Part shown: in pieces, positions 5,872-39,774 of the stretch | How the letters are laid out: each line of letters begins with the position of its first letter | Numbering within the stretch: the first letter of the stretch is position 1 | Origin: an uncultured Brachyspira sp. | GTDB lineage: Bacteria; Spirochaetota; Brachyspiria; Brachyspirales; Brachyspiraceae | Direction: 5' to 3' | Length of the DNA stretch: 56,312 nucleotides | NCBI RefSeq assembly: GCF_944393015.1 | Contig: NZ_CALXYQ010000015.1 | Location: 1 to 56,312 of the forward strand | Notes under the pieces: generated by a model | Databases searched by the model: none | What the model saw: the letters and a program-made list of their open reading frames with translations, nothing else | Told to the model about the DNA's origin: nothing | Program-made: the position numbers and the translations under genes

Positions 5872-7521
5872 ATGGATAATAAAATGTTTTGTTATCAATG
5901 TCAGGAAACAATGAATAATACAGGCTGTGTTGTATCAGGAGTATGTGGTAAAAAGCCGGACTTAGCATATTTAGAAGATTTGCTTGTTCATGTAACTAAA
6001 GGACTTTCTAATATAACAACTGCTATAAGAAAAGAAGGCGGAAAAGTAAATAAAAAAATTAATCATGATATAACATTCAATTTATTTACTACAATAACAA
6101 ATGCTAATTTTGATAAAGAAGTTTTTTATAAAAGAATAGAATATACTTCAAAACTTTGTAATGAATTAGCAAATCAAGTAAAGGATAAATCATTAATACT
6201 TGAAGAATCTTTATGGACTCCTAAAAGTAAAGAAGATATGGATGCTAAATCAAAAACTGTCGGAGTACTAGAAGAAAAAAATGAAGATATAAGAAGTTTA
6301 AAAGAAACTGTTATATACGGAGTTAAGGGATTAAGTGCTTATATGAGGCATGCAAATATGCTTGATTATGAGAATGAAGAAGTGGATGCATTCATACAAA
6401 GAGCTTTGAATGAAACATTAAGAAATGATATAAATGCTGATGAACTTTTAGCCTTAGTACTTGAAACAGGAAAAAACGGAGTTGATGGAATGGCTTTACT
6501 TGATAAGGCTAATACCTCTACTTATGGCAACCCAGAAATTACAAAAGTAAATATAGGCGTTGGTACAAATCCGGGTATATTAGTTTCAGGGCATGATTTA
6601 AAAGACATAGAAATATTATTAAAACAAACAGAAGGTACAGGAGTAGATGTATACACTCATTCAGAGATGCTTCCTGCTCATTATTATCCGGAATTAAAAA
6701 AATATAAACATTTTGTAGGAAATTACGGCGGAGCTTGGTGGGATCAAAGAAAAGATTTTGAAAACTTTAATGGCCCAATACTTATGACTACAAACTGTAT
6801 AGTGACGCCTTTAGAAAGTTATAAAGATAGAATATATACAACAGGTGCTGCTGGTTTTGAAGGATTAAAACATATAGAAAGTCATACTGATAAAGAAAAT
6901 GATAAAGATTTTACTCCTATAATAGAGCATGCAAAAAAATGTAAAGCTCCTAAAGAAATAGAAAGCGGTTTTATAGTAGGAGGATTTGCTCATAATCAGG
7001 TTTTATCACTTAAAGCTAAGATAGCTGAGGCTGTTAAATCTGGTGCTATAAAAAGATTCATTGTAATGGGCGGTTGTGATGGAAGACATAAAGAGAGAGA
7101 ATACTATACTGAATTTGCTAAAAAACTTCCTAAAGACACTGTAATATTAACTGCAGGATGTGCTAAATATAGATATAATAAATTGAATTTAGGAGATATT
7201 AACGGTATACCTAGAGTATTGGATGCAGGACAATGTAATGATTCTTATTCATTGGCAGTTATAGCTTTGGGACTTAAAGATTTATTTGGTTTAGAAGATA
7301 TTAATGATTTACCTATAGTTTATAATATAGCTTGGTATGAACAGAAGGCTGTAATAGTTTTACTTTCTCTTTTATATTTAGGAGTTAAAAATATTCATCT
7401 TGGACCTACAGTTCCTGGATTCTTATCACCTAATGTAGTTAATATATTAGTTTCAAAATTTGGTATTTCAGGAATAACTAATGTAGATGATGATTTGAAA
7501 AAATTTAATTTGATAGCATAA
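5872..7521 (+). CDS. hcp: hydroxylamine reductase (hybrid cluster protein)
   Basis: The 549-residue protein matches Hcp throughout. N-terminal cysteines C7, C10, C19 and C25 would hold the cubane Fe-S cluster. Later conserved segments ([38 protein letters not shown]) carry the hybrid-cluster ligands. Hcp reduces hydroxylamine and acts as an NO reductase protecting anaerobes from nitrosative stress in the cytoplasm. The size is that of the class found in anaerobes. It follows the Rrf2 regulator in one transcription unit, preceded by AATGGAGG, and ends at a strong terminator. Confidence 0.96.
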
Positions 7522-24309: not shown

Positions 24310-25338
24310 CTATTTCCTTAATGATCTATTTGTATTATAGTTCCAATTTGTGCTTACTATATTATTGCTTATAAATATATTAGTAAAGAATGTATTAGTA
24401 AGGAAGTTATTAGCTTTAGAACGCTCATCCATTTCATTAATCTTTTTTACTTTAAGGTTTAAAGCCCTAATAACAGCATAAGTTTCATTATCAATGTTTC
24501 CATCTATTTTTTCAGGTCTGAAATGACATTGAAAAGCATAAAGCACCTTTCTAGAATCCAAATCCCAAACATTATTAGTAGGCATACTTGTATATCCGTA
24601 TTTTATAAACTCTTCTTTTATATCCATTACTTTTGCTTTTTTATATTCATCATCATTTAAAAAGTTGCTGTAATCATATTCATCATACCACATACCTAAA
24701 TTATATTCATCATGAAGTCTTTTCCATGGGAATTTAGGGCCCGGGTCTTTTTTTCTATATGGAGCTATATCAGAATGGCCTAATATATTATAAGGTTTTA
24801 TTTGATATTTCTCTATTAACTCTTTAAGTAAATATGCAACTTTCTCTATTTGACTATCCTCAAATTCTATATATTCATCATAAGAAGTAAAGAATAATTC
24901 ATCTCTTTGCTTTTGCGTCATTCTATTTAATTCTTCATAAGTATTTGTAACTTTTTTTAGGAATCCTAAATTTACTATTTCTATACCGATTGAGGAATCA
25001 TTCATACTATATCTATTGTCAAACATAGTAATTCCAGCATGCCAAGCTCTGTCGCCGTCATCTACAAGTTTATATATAGGCTCATCTTTTTTTGTAGTTA
25101 TGAGATAATGTGCTGATACTCCAGGATCAGTTAATACTTTAAAAGATAAATCATCATTTAAAGCAGTGTAATGAAGTATAATATATTTTATTCTTAAATT
25201 ATATGCCGGAGATTTGAAAGCACTTGAGACTTTCGGTGCTATTTTTCTAGTTCTTATTGGTGTTATATTTTCATCATTACATGATGTAATAGCTAATATC
25301 ATTATTAATAAATAAATAAATCTAATCAATTTAAACAT
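24310..25338 (-). CDS. N-acetylmuramoyl-L-alanine amidase lipoprotein (AmiD-like)
   Basis: The protein begins MFKLIRF with a lipoprotein signal and lipobox AITSC. It then has a zinc amidase_2 domain: IILHYTA (first His), DGDRAWHAGI, SIGIEIVNLG, and ILGHSDIAPYRKKDPGPKFP (second His and the usual KxDPG). The C-terminal region resembles a peptidoglycan-binding domain (KVLYAFQCHFRPEKIDG). It would cut the lactyl-amide bond of murein fragments from the envelope side, as AmiD does. I chose ATG 25338 because GGAG lies 9 nt upstream. The ATG at 25353 lacks a site. The gene overlaps the 3' end of the CHAT gene by 8 nt. Confidence 0.88.
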   Translation of the reverse strand: MFKLIRFIYLLIMILAITSCNDENITPIRTRKIAPKVSSAFKSPAYNLRIKYIILHYTALNDDLSFKVLTDPGVSAHYLITTKKDEPIYKLVDDGDRAWHAGITMFDNRYSMNDSSIGIEIVNLGFLKKVTNTYEELNRMTQKQRDELFFTSYDEYIEFEDSQIEKVAYLLKELIEKYQIKPYNILGHSDIAPYRKKDPGPKFPWKRLHDEYNLGMWYDEYDYSNFLNDDEYKKAKVMDIKEEFIKYGYTSMPTNNVWDLDSRKVLYAFQCHFRPEKIDGNIDNETYAVIRALNLKVKKINEMDERSKANNFLTNTFFTNIFISNNIVSTNWNYNTNRSLRK

Positions 25339-26653
25339 ATATAGGAACTCCATTAAATCTATATCTTATAAAACCTTTATAAAACTCTTTAACTTCAACA
25401 TAAGCAAAATAATATGCTTGTGCTGTATTTATTCTGGCATATTTATGAAGTAAATTACTATAAAAACTATAAATAAAATCTAAGTACTTACCGTCAGCTA
25501 AAGAACCAATGCCGGAAATAACTGTAGCTACTCCGGAAGAAAGCAGTGATTTTGTAAGTTTATTATCAGCTTCTTCCATATTGCATGCATTAATAAAAAT
25601 AAGTGATGGAGGATTTTGTAATGCTGTTACTGAATTTAGTATATAATCCTCGCTTAATTTTATCCCGTCTTTATATCCATGAGTTATAATATGTACTATA
25701 TCATAACTTTCCAATATTTTAACAAATTCAAAATAATTATGCTCTTTTTTGTATAAATCTATTTCTATATTTTTTATATCATTTTGTAATGATAAAATAG
25801 AATCAATCTCCTGTTTATCATACAATATATCATTATTTGGTATTGAAATAATAGCCATTTTTAATTTTTTATTATCTGACTTTTTATTATGCAATATATT
25901 AGATGCATTACTATATGAAAAAATTATATTTTCAGATAAAAATTTTCCGTCATAAGAAAGTATATCCCAAGGAATGCTATATGTTTTATCATCAAGATGC
26001 AAATAAACTATTCTAAATCCGTCAAGCAAATGTTCTCTGAAATCTTTTTCCGGTATAAGCATATTCATTAAATAGCTTCCAAGTTCTATATATCTTTCTA
26101 TATTACTATTTTCACTATTTGAATATTTTAATAAACGAATATATTCTTTATATATGCTTTCATAAGCTTTATTGTCAAAATGTTTTTCATATTCTGCTAC
26201 ATAAAGCGAAGGATATGTTTCTATAGCTTGGTACTTAAAAATATTATTATCTATAGAACATGAAAAAAATGTCTGCGATATATTATCATTTAGAAGTATT
26301 AATCTGTCTTTTAATTTTGAAAATGTTTTTGAATCTATTTCATATATTGAAAAATCAGAGTATTTATCTTCTAATTTATAATATATTCCTCTTCTTCTTT
26401 TATAATTATCACTTATATTTATACTTGTGTAATTATTATCTATTTGTTTTCTATTACTAAAATCTATTTCATAATAACCATATAATTTATTTTTATCATT
26501 ATCATACAGAAATATATTTATTAAACTATTATTTTTTTTATTATTTTTGAAAATCTTTTTTATAGAAGAATTTTTTAAAGTAATATATTCCATATTATGA
26601 GATAAAAAATAATCTCTATTTTGAGTTACTATATATGATTTATATTCTGTCAT
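25331..26653 (-). CDS. CHAT-domain (caspase-like) protease
   Basis: The C-terminal ~230 residues form a CHAT domain. The catalytic His lies in DIVHIITHGY (about residue 325) and the Cys in LIFINACNMEEA (about 357), preceded by YSIPWDILSYDGKFL and followed by SSGVATVISGIGSLADG. CHAT proteins are clan CD cysteine peptidases, some of them effectors in bacterial immunity and programmed death. The N-terminal ~190 residues are Lys/Asn-rich and not recognised. The likely start is ATG 26653; a TTG lies one codon earlier. It overlaps the amidase gene by 8 nt, so the two are translationally coupled, which is an unusual pairing. Confidence 0.82.
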   Translation of the reverse strand: MTEYKSYIVTQNRDYFLSHNMEYITLKNSSIKKIFKNNKKNNSLINIFLYDNDKNKLYGYYEIDFSNRKQIDNNYTSINISDNYKRRRGIYYKLEDKYSDFSIYEIDSKTFSKLKDRLILLNDNISQTFFSCSIDNNIFKYQAIETYPSLYVAEYEKHFDNKAYESIYKEYIRLLKYSNSENSNIERYIELGSYLMNMLIPEKDFREHLLDGFRIVYLHLDDKTYSIPWDILSYDGKFLSENIIFSYSNASNILHNKKSDNKKLKMAIISIPNNDILYDKQEIDSILSLQNDIKNIEIDLYKKEHNYFEFVKILESYDIVHIITHGYKDGIKLSEDYILNSVTALQNPPSLIFINACNMEEADNKLTKSLLSSGVATVISGIGSLADGKYLDFIYSFYSNLLHKYARINTAQAYYFAYVEVKEFYKGFIRYRFNGVPIYV

Positions 26654-26759
26654 CAAAATATTATTTAAGTAAATTTATATTAATTAGTTTAGGGTATTAT
26701 ATAGTAATTTTTACATATAATCAAATTAAAATATTACATAATCGATATAAATTTTATAA

Positions 26760-34744: not shown

Positions 34745-35008
34745 TTGAAAAAATATAGAAAAATGCTATAATACATTATCAAGCTCTTTGACATATTGAA
34801 ATTTCGCACGAGAGGGTGATTTTTTGATAATTACATAGAAAATAGCTTGATAATTACATAGCTGGGCGAAAGTAAAGCGAATTTACAAAGAGGATTGATA
34901 ATTACATAATGAGTTTAAAAACATATAAAGGAAGAAACTAGTTTAAAAACCTTGTGTTGTAAATAAATATTACTAAATTTTTACAAAAAATTTAAGAAAA
35001 AATTACGG
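34745..35008 (+). promoter_or_regulatory. leader-like region of the CRISPR-like array
   Basis: TTGAAA (34745-34750) and TATAAT (34767-34772), 16 nt apart, form a good plus-strand promoter pointing into the array. TTGATAATTACATA occurs three times (34824, 34847, 34895). ATGAGTTTAAAAAC (34909-34922) is the exact reverse complement of the first 14 nt of the array repeat, and AGTTTAAAAAC (34940-34950) is a shorter inverted copy. AT-rich DNA follows up to the first repeat. The intact repeats are on this side, as expected next to a leader. Confidence 0.6.
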
Positions 35009-35188
35009 GTTTTTAAACTCATTCCCCGCGAGGGGACGAAAAGGTTCCTGCCTTTCTTCCTCCTGTTTTTACAGCTCCTTTCTTTTGTTTTTAAACTCAT
35101 TCCCCGCGAGGGGACGAAAAGATATCAGTCATATTACATTTATAACCAACATCGATTATATCATAGTTTTTAAACTCATTCCCCGCGA

Positions 35189-35214
35189 TACCACAAGGGT
35201 ACTTCCTACGGTCG
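35189..35214 (+). repeat. 26-nt insert in the loop of CRISPR repeat 3
   Basis: Between GCGA and GGGG of the repeat hairpin stand 26 extra bases. They begin TACCACAAGGGTA (itself a small hairpin, TACC/GGTA) and end CTACGGTCG. The rest of the repeat is unchanged, and the unit length grows from 79 to 105 nt accordingly. Confidence 0.75.
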
Positions 35215-35292
35215 GGGGACGAAAACTGTTGTGCCTGCTGCTATTGGCACAGTTAAACTTTTATCAGCTAGTTTTTAAACTCATTCCCTGCG

Positions 35293-35315
35293 TAGCATTC
35301 CGGTACGGAGCTGAA
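35293..35315 (+). repeat. 23-nt palindromic insert in the loop of CRISPR repeat 4
   Basis: The insert contains AGCATTCCGGTACGGAGCT, in which AGC pairs with GCT and TCCG with CGGA. It lies at the same place in the repeat hairpin as the insert of repeat 3 but has a different sequence. The unit is 101 nt instead of 78. Confidence 0.75.
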
Positions 35316-35435
35316 AGGGGACTAAAACATTTTAGAATATATTTTAATGATATGTCTTTTCTTTAATTCAAGTTTTTAAACTTATTCCCAAAATATGGAG
35401 TGGTAATTACAAGTATATAAGTTTGGGTAATTAGC

Positions 35436-35508
35436 AGGTAATAAACCGCACCTATAGTGGACTATCTTAAATGTTTAGTAATACGGTGCGGGAAGCCACG
35501 CGGCGAGC
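35436..35508 (+). repeat. 73-nt structured element, copy 1, in array unit 5
   Basis: It runs from AGGTAATAAACC to GGCGAGC. Its main stem is CCGCACC / GGTGCGG, and it ends with GCCACGCGGCGAGC, placed directly before the next repeat. About 80 percent of positions agree with copy 2. Confidence 0.75.
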
Positions 35509-35567
35509 GTTTTTAAACTCATTCTCTACAAAGTGAAGGGCAGCAGCCGAGTAGGCTATGTAATGAA

Positions 35568-35639
35568 AGGTAATAAACCGCACGTATAGCAGACTGTCTA
35601 TAAGGTTGGCAATTCCGTGCGGGTTGCCACGCGGCGAGC
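35568..35639 (+). repeat. 72-nt structured element, copy 2, in array unit 6
   Basis: The ends are the same as copy 1, but the stem is CCGCACG / CGTGCGG. The closing C-G pair of copy 1 is G-C here, so both sides changed together and pairing is kept. An inner hairpin TATAG / CTATA is present. Confidence 0.75.
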
Positions 35640-35657
35640 GTTTTTAAACTCATTCCC

Positions 35658-35680
35658 GCTTACTGTCTTTTGGCAGTTTG
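35658..35680 (+). repeat. palindromic insert in the loop of CRISPR repeat 7
   Basis: ACTGTC and GGCAGT pair around TTTT (35662-35677) within the last repeat, between CCC and AGGG of the repeat hairpin. This is the third different insert at the same place in the repeat. Confidence 0.65.
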
Positions 35681-35716
35681 AGGGACGAAATTATGCCTTT
35701 GAACTAAAAATAAATT

Positions 35717-38147: not shown

Positions 38148-39774
38148 TTATAGTTTTTCATCTTTAAGAAGATTATTAAATTGATTTCTTGAATAAACTG
38201 TTATTTTATCATTGTATGAAACATAGCTTTTAGCACTATTACTTAATGTTACAGGTACTATTAAAATACCGTTTTTAGCTCCTGATTCATTAATCATCAT
38301 TTGGAAATCTCTTATTAATAATTCTCCTATTTCAATTTTTTTCCATCTTTTGAAAGATATTAAAGTGGTATCTCTTTTATTTCCTTTGGTATTGTATGTT
38401 ATATAATTAACCTCATCACCGTAATCACTTTTAGAAGCAGCATCAGTATATTCCTGTATTATAGAATACGATAGTTTTGTGCGTATTAAATTCTGACATA
38501 ATTTTTTGAAGTCAATCATATTCATATTATAAATGTGATCTACTTTCTGAACAATCTTTAAGCTTATTTCATTATTGCTGTTATTATCATTTATTTTTAA
38601 TTCATCTAATATTTTCTTAATATTTATATTATTTTGTATTGTTATAAGATAAGCTAAATAACTTATATCTATAAAAGAACCTTCCCATAAATCAACAGCT
38701 CTCTCCCAGTTTTGAATATCTTCTTTTTCTACATACTTTTCATAATTATCATTTTTAGAATTATCCAATTTCATTAAATTTCTTAATTTACTAAGTTGTT
38801 CTGTAGCTTTATTTATATCTGATAAATATTTTATTATAAGCTCAAAATTATAAGTATTTAATTCAGGCAATTTTAAATCATTGATAATTTCAAATAACCT
38901 TTTGGATAAAGATATATCTCTTAAAAAATATGAGTAGAAAGAATAGTCTAATACTAAATCAGATATTTTTTTATTAGGATTTGATATATTATATTTTTTA
39001 TATAGATTATCATATAATTCTCTAAACTTTTCATTATCAAGAACTTTATACAATATATGCAGATAAATTCTATCCATATATAATTGATTATTAATATGTT
39101 TATTGATTATAATCTGCTCTATAAAACCTCTTGCTATATTTAATTCATCAGAAAGCATATACATAGATATTAAAGTTTTATTAATATTATCTATATCTTT
39201 ATCATTTTCTTTTGCTAATCTTTTTTGAAGTTCTTCTAAAAAGACAATAGATTTTTTATAATCTTTTGTTTTAAAAAAACTAAAAGCAGCTGCTTTAAGA
39301 TTATCTGTATCAAATTCATTTTTGTTTAATATAGCTTTATTAAAATAATCGCAGGCAAGTATATAATATCCTTCATTGCAAAGAGTAGTTCCTGCTTTAA
39401 TATTACAAGGCATATTATTGGAATCTAATCTGGCAATTTTTAGAGTATATTTAAAAGCTTCTTCATTTTTATCGAAATTCTCATAAAAGCTTTCGAGTTT
39501 TTGACATATCTCTAATTCCTCTTTTTCTTTAAAGAAAGAAACCTGCAGTAATTTTTCATACATTTTTAATGCTTCTTCTATTTCGCCTATTTGTTCTTTA
39601 AGTTTAGCTAATTGATAAATAGATACATAATCTTTTTCATCTTCATTAATTTTTTTTGTCAATTCTTCTATTTGCTTTTTTACATATTTTGGAGACAAAG
39701 TTTTCTTGTTGCTAAGAATTCTTTTTAATAATTAAAATTAATAATACTATTGCTGATAATATAATATAAACCAT
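38148..39774 (-). pseudogene. TPR protein with Mrr-like C-terminal domain, frameshifted after a membrane anchor
   Basis: From 39698 (a TTG without a ribosome site) an open frame of 516 residues gives TPR-like helices (about 1-330). It ends in a region like the Mrr restriction-endonuclease fold (TTLISFKRWKKIEIGELLIRD, NGILIVPVTLSNSAKSYVSY), with D and SFK in the positions of the D...(E/Q)xK core. Upstream, a good site (AAAAAGG) and ATG at 39774 start MVYIILSAIVLLILIIKK, a membrane helix, in another frame that stops after 20 codons. Removing one A from the run at 39722-39726 joins the two as ...LIIKRILSNKKTLSPKYVKK. I infer a single membrane-anchored protein interrupted by +1 A: slippage, mutation or read error. 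Confidence 0.65.

Follow-up and report, generated by a model that had tools for sequence, protein, structure and literature searches.

Two anti-repeats in the leader of subtype III-A CRISPR arrays of Brachyspira: a candidate leader RNA that may pair with the first repeats in cis

An uncultured Brachyspira sp. possesses a CRISPR array whose leader contains two anti-repeats (AR1 and AR2), both complementary to the 5' arm of the array's own repeat. The array lies in the window, i.e., the whole stretch of 56,312 nucleotides that was analysed, and belongs to a subtype III-A (Csm) CRISPR-Cas system with five dispersed arrays. Pairing of a leader transcript with the array repeats is well supported by the sequence. 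We infer that the leader is transcribed, that it adopts the corresponding fold in the cell and that it affects processing. On this basis we tentatively propose a structured III-A leader RNA whose anti-repeats would bind the array's first repeats in cis and shape the newest crRNA; we rate this proposal a little short of an even chance. The leader-repeat anatomy as such is known from Cas9 and Cas13 systems, and the element that appears to be new is its occurrence in a III-A system without the usual reason.

Results and Discussion

A subtype III-A system with dispersed arrays

Judged by its genes, the system is of subtype III-A. Cas10/Csm1, Csm2, Csm3, Csm4 and Csm5 are all encoded in the same genome, with consecutive genes on contig C22 (G000:C22, L122:6637-12816) scoring above the cut-off for TIGR02578, TIGR01870, TIGR02582, TIGR01903 and TIGR01899. 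Besides these genes, a Cas6 match (TIGR01877; 54.8 bits, E 1.7e-14, slightly below the cut-off of 58.65) and a repeat with a stem-loop and an 8-nt tag are present, and the only Cas1 detected in this genome resembles those of III-A systems. The array on contig C22, which has the same repeat and the same leader as the window array, is located directly downstream of cas1-cas2 and ~6.5 kb from cas10-csm2-csm3-csm4-csm5-cas6. No recognised cas genes adjoin the window array, so that it would have to use the C22 cas genes in trans. The csm6 gene after cas6 seems to be interrupted (L122 13600-14423 in G000:C22; two short ORFs, 116 and 114 aa, each cover a different part of the Csm6 model). Near the window array a protein with an Mrr-type restriction endonuclease domain is encoded, and farther off a CHAT-domain protein (window 38148-39698 and 25331-26656).

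The repeat has the layout GTTTTTAAACTCATT-CCCC(N4)GGGG-ACGAAAAC, with a stem-loop and an 8-nt 5'-tag end; its tag and cleavage site are placed here by analogy with type III biology. The same repeat is found in five arrays on separate contigs of this Brachyspira genome and in one distal fragment. The features of the window array are as follows:

35009-35690, plus strand: CRISPR array of seven repeat units, the distal ones degenerate or with insertions.
35009-35043, plus strand: first repeat, with the 5' arm (35009-35023), the Cas6-type stem-loop CCCCGCGAGGGG (35024-35035) and the putative 8-nt tag (35036-35043).
35087-35121, plus strand: second repeat, predicted partner of AR1 (AR1:R2 probability 0.94).

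Several repeats have insertions precisely in the loop of the stem (CCCCGNA...GGGG; window 35166-35220 and 35271-35326; L009, L011, L012, L061, L062, L063, L064, L096). These are often palindromic dispersed sequences, e.g., ACCAAGTAGGC..., and arm, stem and tag are intact. Composite units at the distal array ends (window 35372-35639; L009, L010, L011, L012, L013, L124) consist of the 5' arm of the repeat, variable DNA and then a GC-rich palindrome GGTAATNANCCGCACC...GGTGCGGGAAGCC...GGCGAGC; they are repeated, also with degenerate arms. The last repeat of several arrays (window 35640-35690; L012, L061, L062, L145) has a common distinct stem-loop CCCGCTTACTGTCTTTTGGCAGTTTGAGGGAC and an altered tag, and this altered terminal repeat might silence extraneous crRNA from the last repeat. 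In the C22 array, two repeat-spacer units are in exact tandem duplication (L011, reverse strand, offsets 7102-7414). In L145 (G023:C253), the leader ends after boxA and a terminal-type repeat follows shortly downstream, which looks like a deleted array.

A conserved leader with two anti-repeats

The ~270-nt leader is common to all five arrays of this genome, to two arrays of Brachyspira alvinipulli ATCC 51933 and to one array of an uncultured Brachyspira. The alignment therefore comprises eight leaders (five, two and one, respectively) from three Brachyspira genomes. They are 78-98% identical over ~230 nt past the promoter, and the five leaders of the window's genome share 89-93% identity among themselves. 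All eight have in common a promoter, a boxA-like site, three copies of a direct repeat (the first of which varies), a small hairpin, AR1, AR2 and a TTGTAAA...TTTACAA hairpin. In the window, these features are located as follows:

34745-34772, plus strand: promoter-like sequence, -35 TTGAAA (34745-34750) and -10 TATAAT (34767-34772) with a 16-bp spacer; both regions are recognisable in the aligned leaders.
34783-34794, plus strand: boxA-like putative antitermination site GCTCTTTGACAT; 10 of 12 columns invariant in 8 leaders.
34824-34837, plus strand: direct repeat copy 1, TTGATAATTACATA; variant TTGTAAATTACATA in some leaders.
34847-34860, plus strand: direct repeat copy 2; 14 of 14 columns invariant in 8 leaders.
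34872-34886, plus strand: small hairpin GTAAA-GCGAA-TTTAC; stem in all 8 leaders.
34895-34908, plus strand: direct repeat copy 3, abutting AR1; its final A is the first A of AR1.
34908-34922, plus strand: AR1, AATGAGTTTAAAAAC, complementary to the entire 15-nt 5' arm; 14 of 15 columns invariant, the exception retaining a G-U pair.
34940-34956, plus strand: AR2, AGTTTAAAAACCTTGTG, complement of the leader-repeat junction (35004-35019) except for a single bulged base; in the C1 array, a compensatory change is seen.
34957-34986, plus strand: hairpin TTGTAAA...TTTACAA adjoining AR2; 7-bp stem, 98% of cells paired in 8 leaders.
35004-35008, plus strand: last five leader nucleotides TACGG, within the AR2 helix.

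Several of these elements had been described in a first-pass annotation of this DNA. The promoter motifs and the three direct repeats (starting at 34824, 34847 and 34895) are present as stated there, and the 11-nt anti-repeat noted at 34940 corresponds to the core of AR2 (AGTTTAAAAAC, 34940-34950), which amounts to 12 nt if C34951, opposite the last leader G, is counted. The 14-nt anti-repeat ATGAGTTTAAAAAC at 34909-34922, reported as the complement of repeat nucleotides 1-14, turned out to be part of a longer match that begins at 34908: AR1 is the exact complement of repeat nucleotides 1-15, and the complementarity ends where the CCCC(N4)GGGG stem-loop starts. AR2 complements the leader-repeat junction because its tail also pairs with the terminal TACGG of the leader.

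This complementarity is beyond chance. In dinucleotide shuffles of the leader, the longest complement to the 15-nt arm was ~7 nt on average and none of 300 shuffles reached 15 nt, the length found in seven of the eight leaders; the z-score of the leader-arm duplex is about -6 to -7 in all eight. Furthermore, the 3.44-Mb genome contains the 14-mer only within repeats, there in reverse-complement orientation, and as a single copy in four of the five leaders; the remaining one carries ATGGGTTTAAAAAC in its place. A chance match as the source of the anti-repeats is thus excluded by the shuffles together with the genome-wide specificity. A small peptide starting from the ATG at 34909 (MSLKTYKGRN*) was rejected as well, as an in-frame stop interrupts it in one leader and its reading is not constant among the leaders. 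No phage or IMG/VR copies were found.

The anti-repeats could also be a historical relic, i.e., fragments of inverted repeats that were retained through the recent common descent of the eight leaders and other causes of conservation. The high identity of the leaders within the genome would agree with this, as would the conservation of AR1, which is no higher than that of several other leader blocks in the eight leaders, and the existence of relatives with another repeat that manage without anti-repeats (see below). However, in the C9 leader of B. alvinipulli ~20% of positions differ, and AR1 is still intact and AR2 nearly so. Moreover, the two anti-repeats fit one and the same arm, and the observed changes mostly retain pairing. 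We therefore consider a relic unlikely.

Predicted fold and covariation

The pairing that the first-pass annotation had suspected between the anti-repeats and the array repeats is also seen in the predicted folds. The window leader together with the first repeat folds more stably than shuffles (z -3.0), whereas the leader alone is not clearly so (z -1.4), and the pairing is predicted in seven natural arrays. In the RNAalifold result for the leaders, the partner of AR1 is the first repeat, and that of the AR2 tail is the last leader nucleotides. If the RNA ends after repeat 1, AR1 mostly occupies repeat 1 in the seven natural arrays; AR2 takes this place in the C22 array, and the C1 array is mixed. 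With repeats 1 and 2 in the transcript, the predicted pairing is nested in every one of the seven, with AR2 on repeat 1 (AR2:R1 0.72-0.98) and AR1 on repeat 2 (AR1:R2 0.93-0.98), and the Cas6 stem-loop of repeat 1 is predicted to remain folded (P 0.96-1.0); all these probabilities are equilibrium predictions with standard parameters, and co-transcriptional folding may differ. The pairing is thus not predicted to disrupt a fold needed for processing of the first repeat, as the Cas6 stem-loop stays formed. If a third repeat is included in the transcript, AR1 may choose repeat 2 or 3 according to the prediction.

AR1 has a single variable column, an A to G change in the C22 leader that retains a G-U pair. 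Because there is almost no variation in AR1, its pairing gives covariation no handle. In the AR2-junction helix, one compensatory change affecting both sides is found in the C1 array, and two pairs vary on one side with pairing mostly kept, besides single unpaired cells; in five leaders a T stands opposite repeat G1. Covariation of the AR2-junction helix was not above shuffles (147 of 500), and a strong covariation test is precluded because the leaders are too alike. The evidence at the RNA level, i.e., one compensatory change and a few G-U-compatible ones, is modest. The departures from an exact reverse complement, mostly G-U pairs or the bulge, seem to fit an RNA better than a DNA site, although as evidence this is weak.

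The main rival to the leader-RNA reading is a role at the DNA level, in which AR1, AR2 and the TTGATAATTACATA copies would be binding sites for proteins (Cas1-Cas2 or a host bending protein) that steer spacer integration to the junction. Sites for integrase and bending proteins are known in leaders, and inverted-repeat motifs contact Cas2 in I-F systems (PMC12259127); in the I-A system of Sulfolobus, Cas1 binds a leader-proximal stem-loop and a distal leader motif matters (PMC9456107). These adaptation motifs resemble the Brachyspira elements in being repeated or inverted leader motifs near the junction, and by their sequence the latter are candidates for such sites. It also speaks for the integration role that the C22 array adjoins cas1-cas2 and that the spacing of the anti-repeats to the repeat is nearly fixed (AR1 to first repeat, 86 nt in seven leaders and 85 in one). 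The TTGATAATTACATA copies are specific for the leaders (12 of 13 occurrences genome-wide are in these leaders, one elsewhere) and are partly retained even in distant leaders, and protein binding at the three direct repeats appears plausible. However, an RNA helix would tolerate the one-base bulge of AR2 and the T opposite repeat G1, whereas in a DNA site they would be deviations; what the compensatory (C1) and G-U-type (C22) changes keep is the pairing and not the sequence, and the complement halts exactly at the Cas6 stem. On balance, we regard the integration role as improbable.

Related leaders without anti-repeats

Two homologous leaders (G008 and G025), 67-68% identical, serve the sister repeat GTTTTTAAAATCAATT. 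They retain promoter, boxA, hairpins and at least one TTGATAATTACATA-like copy, and no anti-repeat above chance was found in them; G008 has III-A RAMP and cas6 genes. A compensated match was considered for these two leaders and rejected, as the positions equivalent to AR1 fit their own repeat at chance level only (11 of 16). The first-pass annotation had held that loss of the anti-repeat from otherwise intact leaders would count against its proposal. Such a loss is seen between repeat families, in the homologous G008 and G025 leaders; in the eight leaders of this repeat, the anti-repeat is never lost. Because homologous leaders with another repeat family do without anti-repeats, the pairing appears not to be essential to these III-A leaders in general. 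A natural contrast is at hand in related leaders that have the anti-repeats and others that do not.

In a survey of 13 leaders at III-A loci of eleven other spirochaete genomes, no comparable pairing was clearly above chance (best single leader P 0.04, canonical repeat orientation being assumed), and anti-repeats as a common feature of III-A leaders were not supported in this set. With none clearly above chance in these 13 leaders or in those of G008 and G025, the anti-repeats are a feature of one lineage of leaders.

Comparison with known RNAs and a possible role

The first-pass annotation had likened the anti-repeats to a tracr-type RNA. The part of this comparison that concerns pairing with the repeats is supported by sequence and conservation, whereas tracr-like action in trans is unlikely in view of the system's own Cas6, the lack of an Rfam match and the partners available in cis. 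In the tracrRNAs of type II and some type V systems, the anti-repeat is likewise directed to the 5' part of the repeat; the Brachyspira anti-repeats, in contrast, are located inside the leader and have their partner in cis. If they acted in trans, a leader RNA released by Cas6 would pair via AR1 with repeats of other transcripts and thereby guide the trimming of crRNA 3' ends by RNase III or regulate crRNA levels. Every intact repeat of the five arrays has an arm that AR1 fits, and AR1 would be free for another repeat while AR2 occupies repeat 1. Its nearest partner is, however, repeat 2 in cis on the same transcript. Furthermore, Cas6 is present, the repeats have a stem-loop of their own, the window contains no Rfam tracrRNA match, and no requirement for an anti-repeat RNA is known in III-A systems. 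We regard action in trans as very doubtful. As a III-A system with its own Cas6, no Rfam tracrRNA match and a spared Cas6 stem-loop is concerned, a leader-repeat structure in cis fits better than a tracrRNA.

Type III-A crRNAs are of the repeat-guide type, with the repeat tag 5' of the guide. To our knowledge, no extraneous crRNA arises from the first repeat in III-A systems. The system described here, being III-A, does not make guide-repeat crRNAs that would give such an RNA, and the purpose of blocking it is therefore not applicable.

Leader-repeat hairpins with this purpose are known from other types. In II-A systems, according to the account of Liao et al. (2022) given in PMC13187072, such a hairpin speeds maturation of the newest crRNA and suppresses extraneous crRNA by blocking the pairing of tracrRNA. 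For VI-B, VI-BtA and VI-F, Migur et al. (2026, PMC13187072) describe a conserved leader family with predicted pairing to the first repeat. Hairpins block extraneous crRNA in several guide-repeat type VI subtypes, whereas VI-A, a repeat-guide subtype, has no hairpin; in VI-B, the hairpin refolds the repeat and blocks processing by Cas13 (PMC13187072). As in the II-A hairpin, the leader RNA of Brachyspira lies ahead of the newest spacer and has complementarity in cis to the first repeat. The II-A systems use Cas9, tracrRNA and RNase III, however, whereas the Brachyspira system is III-A with Cas6, has two anti-repeats and spares the processing stem-loop. At most, the Brachyspira leader would resemble the II-A case in acting on the newest crRNA. 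The predicted pairing with the first repeat is common to Brachyspira and the VI-B, VI-BtA and VI-F leaders, but in Brachyspira it occurs in a repeat-guide system and, unlike in VI-B, the repeat stem is left undisturbed. Because the anatomy is alike but the known purpose is absent and the processing stem is spared, we keep this leader apart from the hairpins that block extraneous crRNA. The literature searched, with most subscription journals outside its scope, yielded no description of such a hairpin in type III.

In the proposed cis-acting leader RNA, the 5' part of the pre-crRNA would probably be the leader, transcribed from the 34745-34772 promoter, since promoter and boxA lie upstream, and the transcript would be antiterminated through boxA. 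AR2 would then fold back onto the leader-repeat junction and repeat 1. AR1 would pair with the 5' arm of repeat 1 until repeat 2 is synthesised, and with that of repeat 2 thereafter. Only the unstructured 5' arms would be engaged, and the Cas6 stem-loops would remain folded. The most likely role of such an RNA would be to organise the leader-proximal end in such a way that excision of the newest spacer's crRNA is clean and comes first. For that, the leader RNA would hold the arms of repeats 1 and 2 away from competing folds; it could in addition form a short duplex flanking spacer 1 on its 3' side, with an effect on trimming. A more specific version, in which the two anti-repeats clamp the first two repeats in a nested manner in a repeat-guide III-A system and thereby favour or shape the crRNA of the newest spacer, is possible but rather on the doubtful side. 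If it were true, leader-repeat pairing would have arisen once more, and for a reason other than the blocking of extraneous crRNA. The explanation given for leader-repeat hairpins to date is that they counter the useless crRNA which guide-repeat systems produce from the first repeat. If a conserved case existed in a III-A system processed by Cas6, with the stem spared and two repeats that may be bound, leader RNAs would have functions beyond blocking that RNA, and a preference of type III systems for their newest spacer could be put to the test.

The boxA-like site is nearly identical to AGTTCTTTGAAATAT, located ~170 nt upstream of the 16S rRNA gene of the same genome. CRISPR leaders carrying boxA are known (Stringer et al., as cited in PMC7862264), and the Brachyspira leader resembles them in having a boxA-like site just after the leader promoter and differs in that its boxA accompanies a structured leader with anti-repeats. 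Another CRISPR type of Brachyspira (L099, L100, L101; repeat GTCTCGATACCC...) has a boxA-like sequence, GTTCTTTG(A/G)CAT, directly after the promoter.
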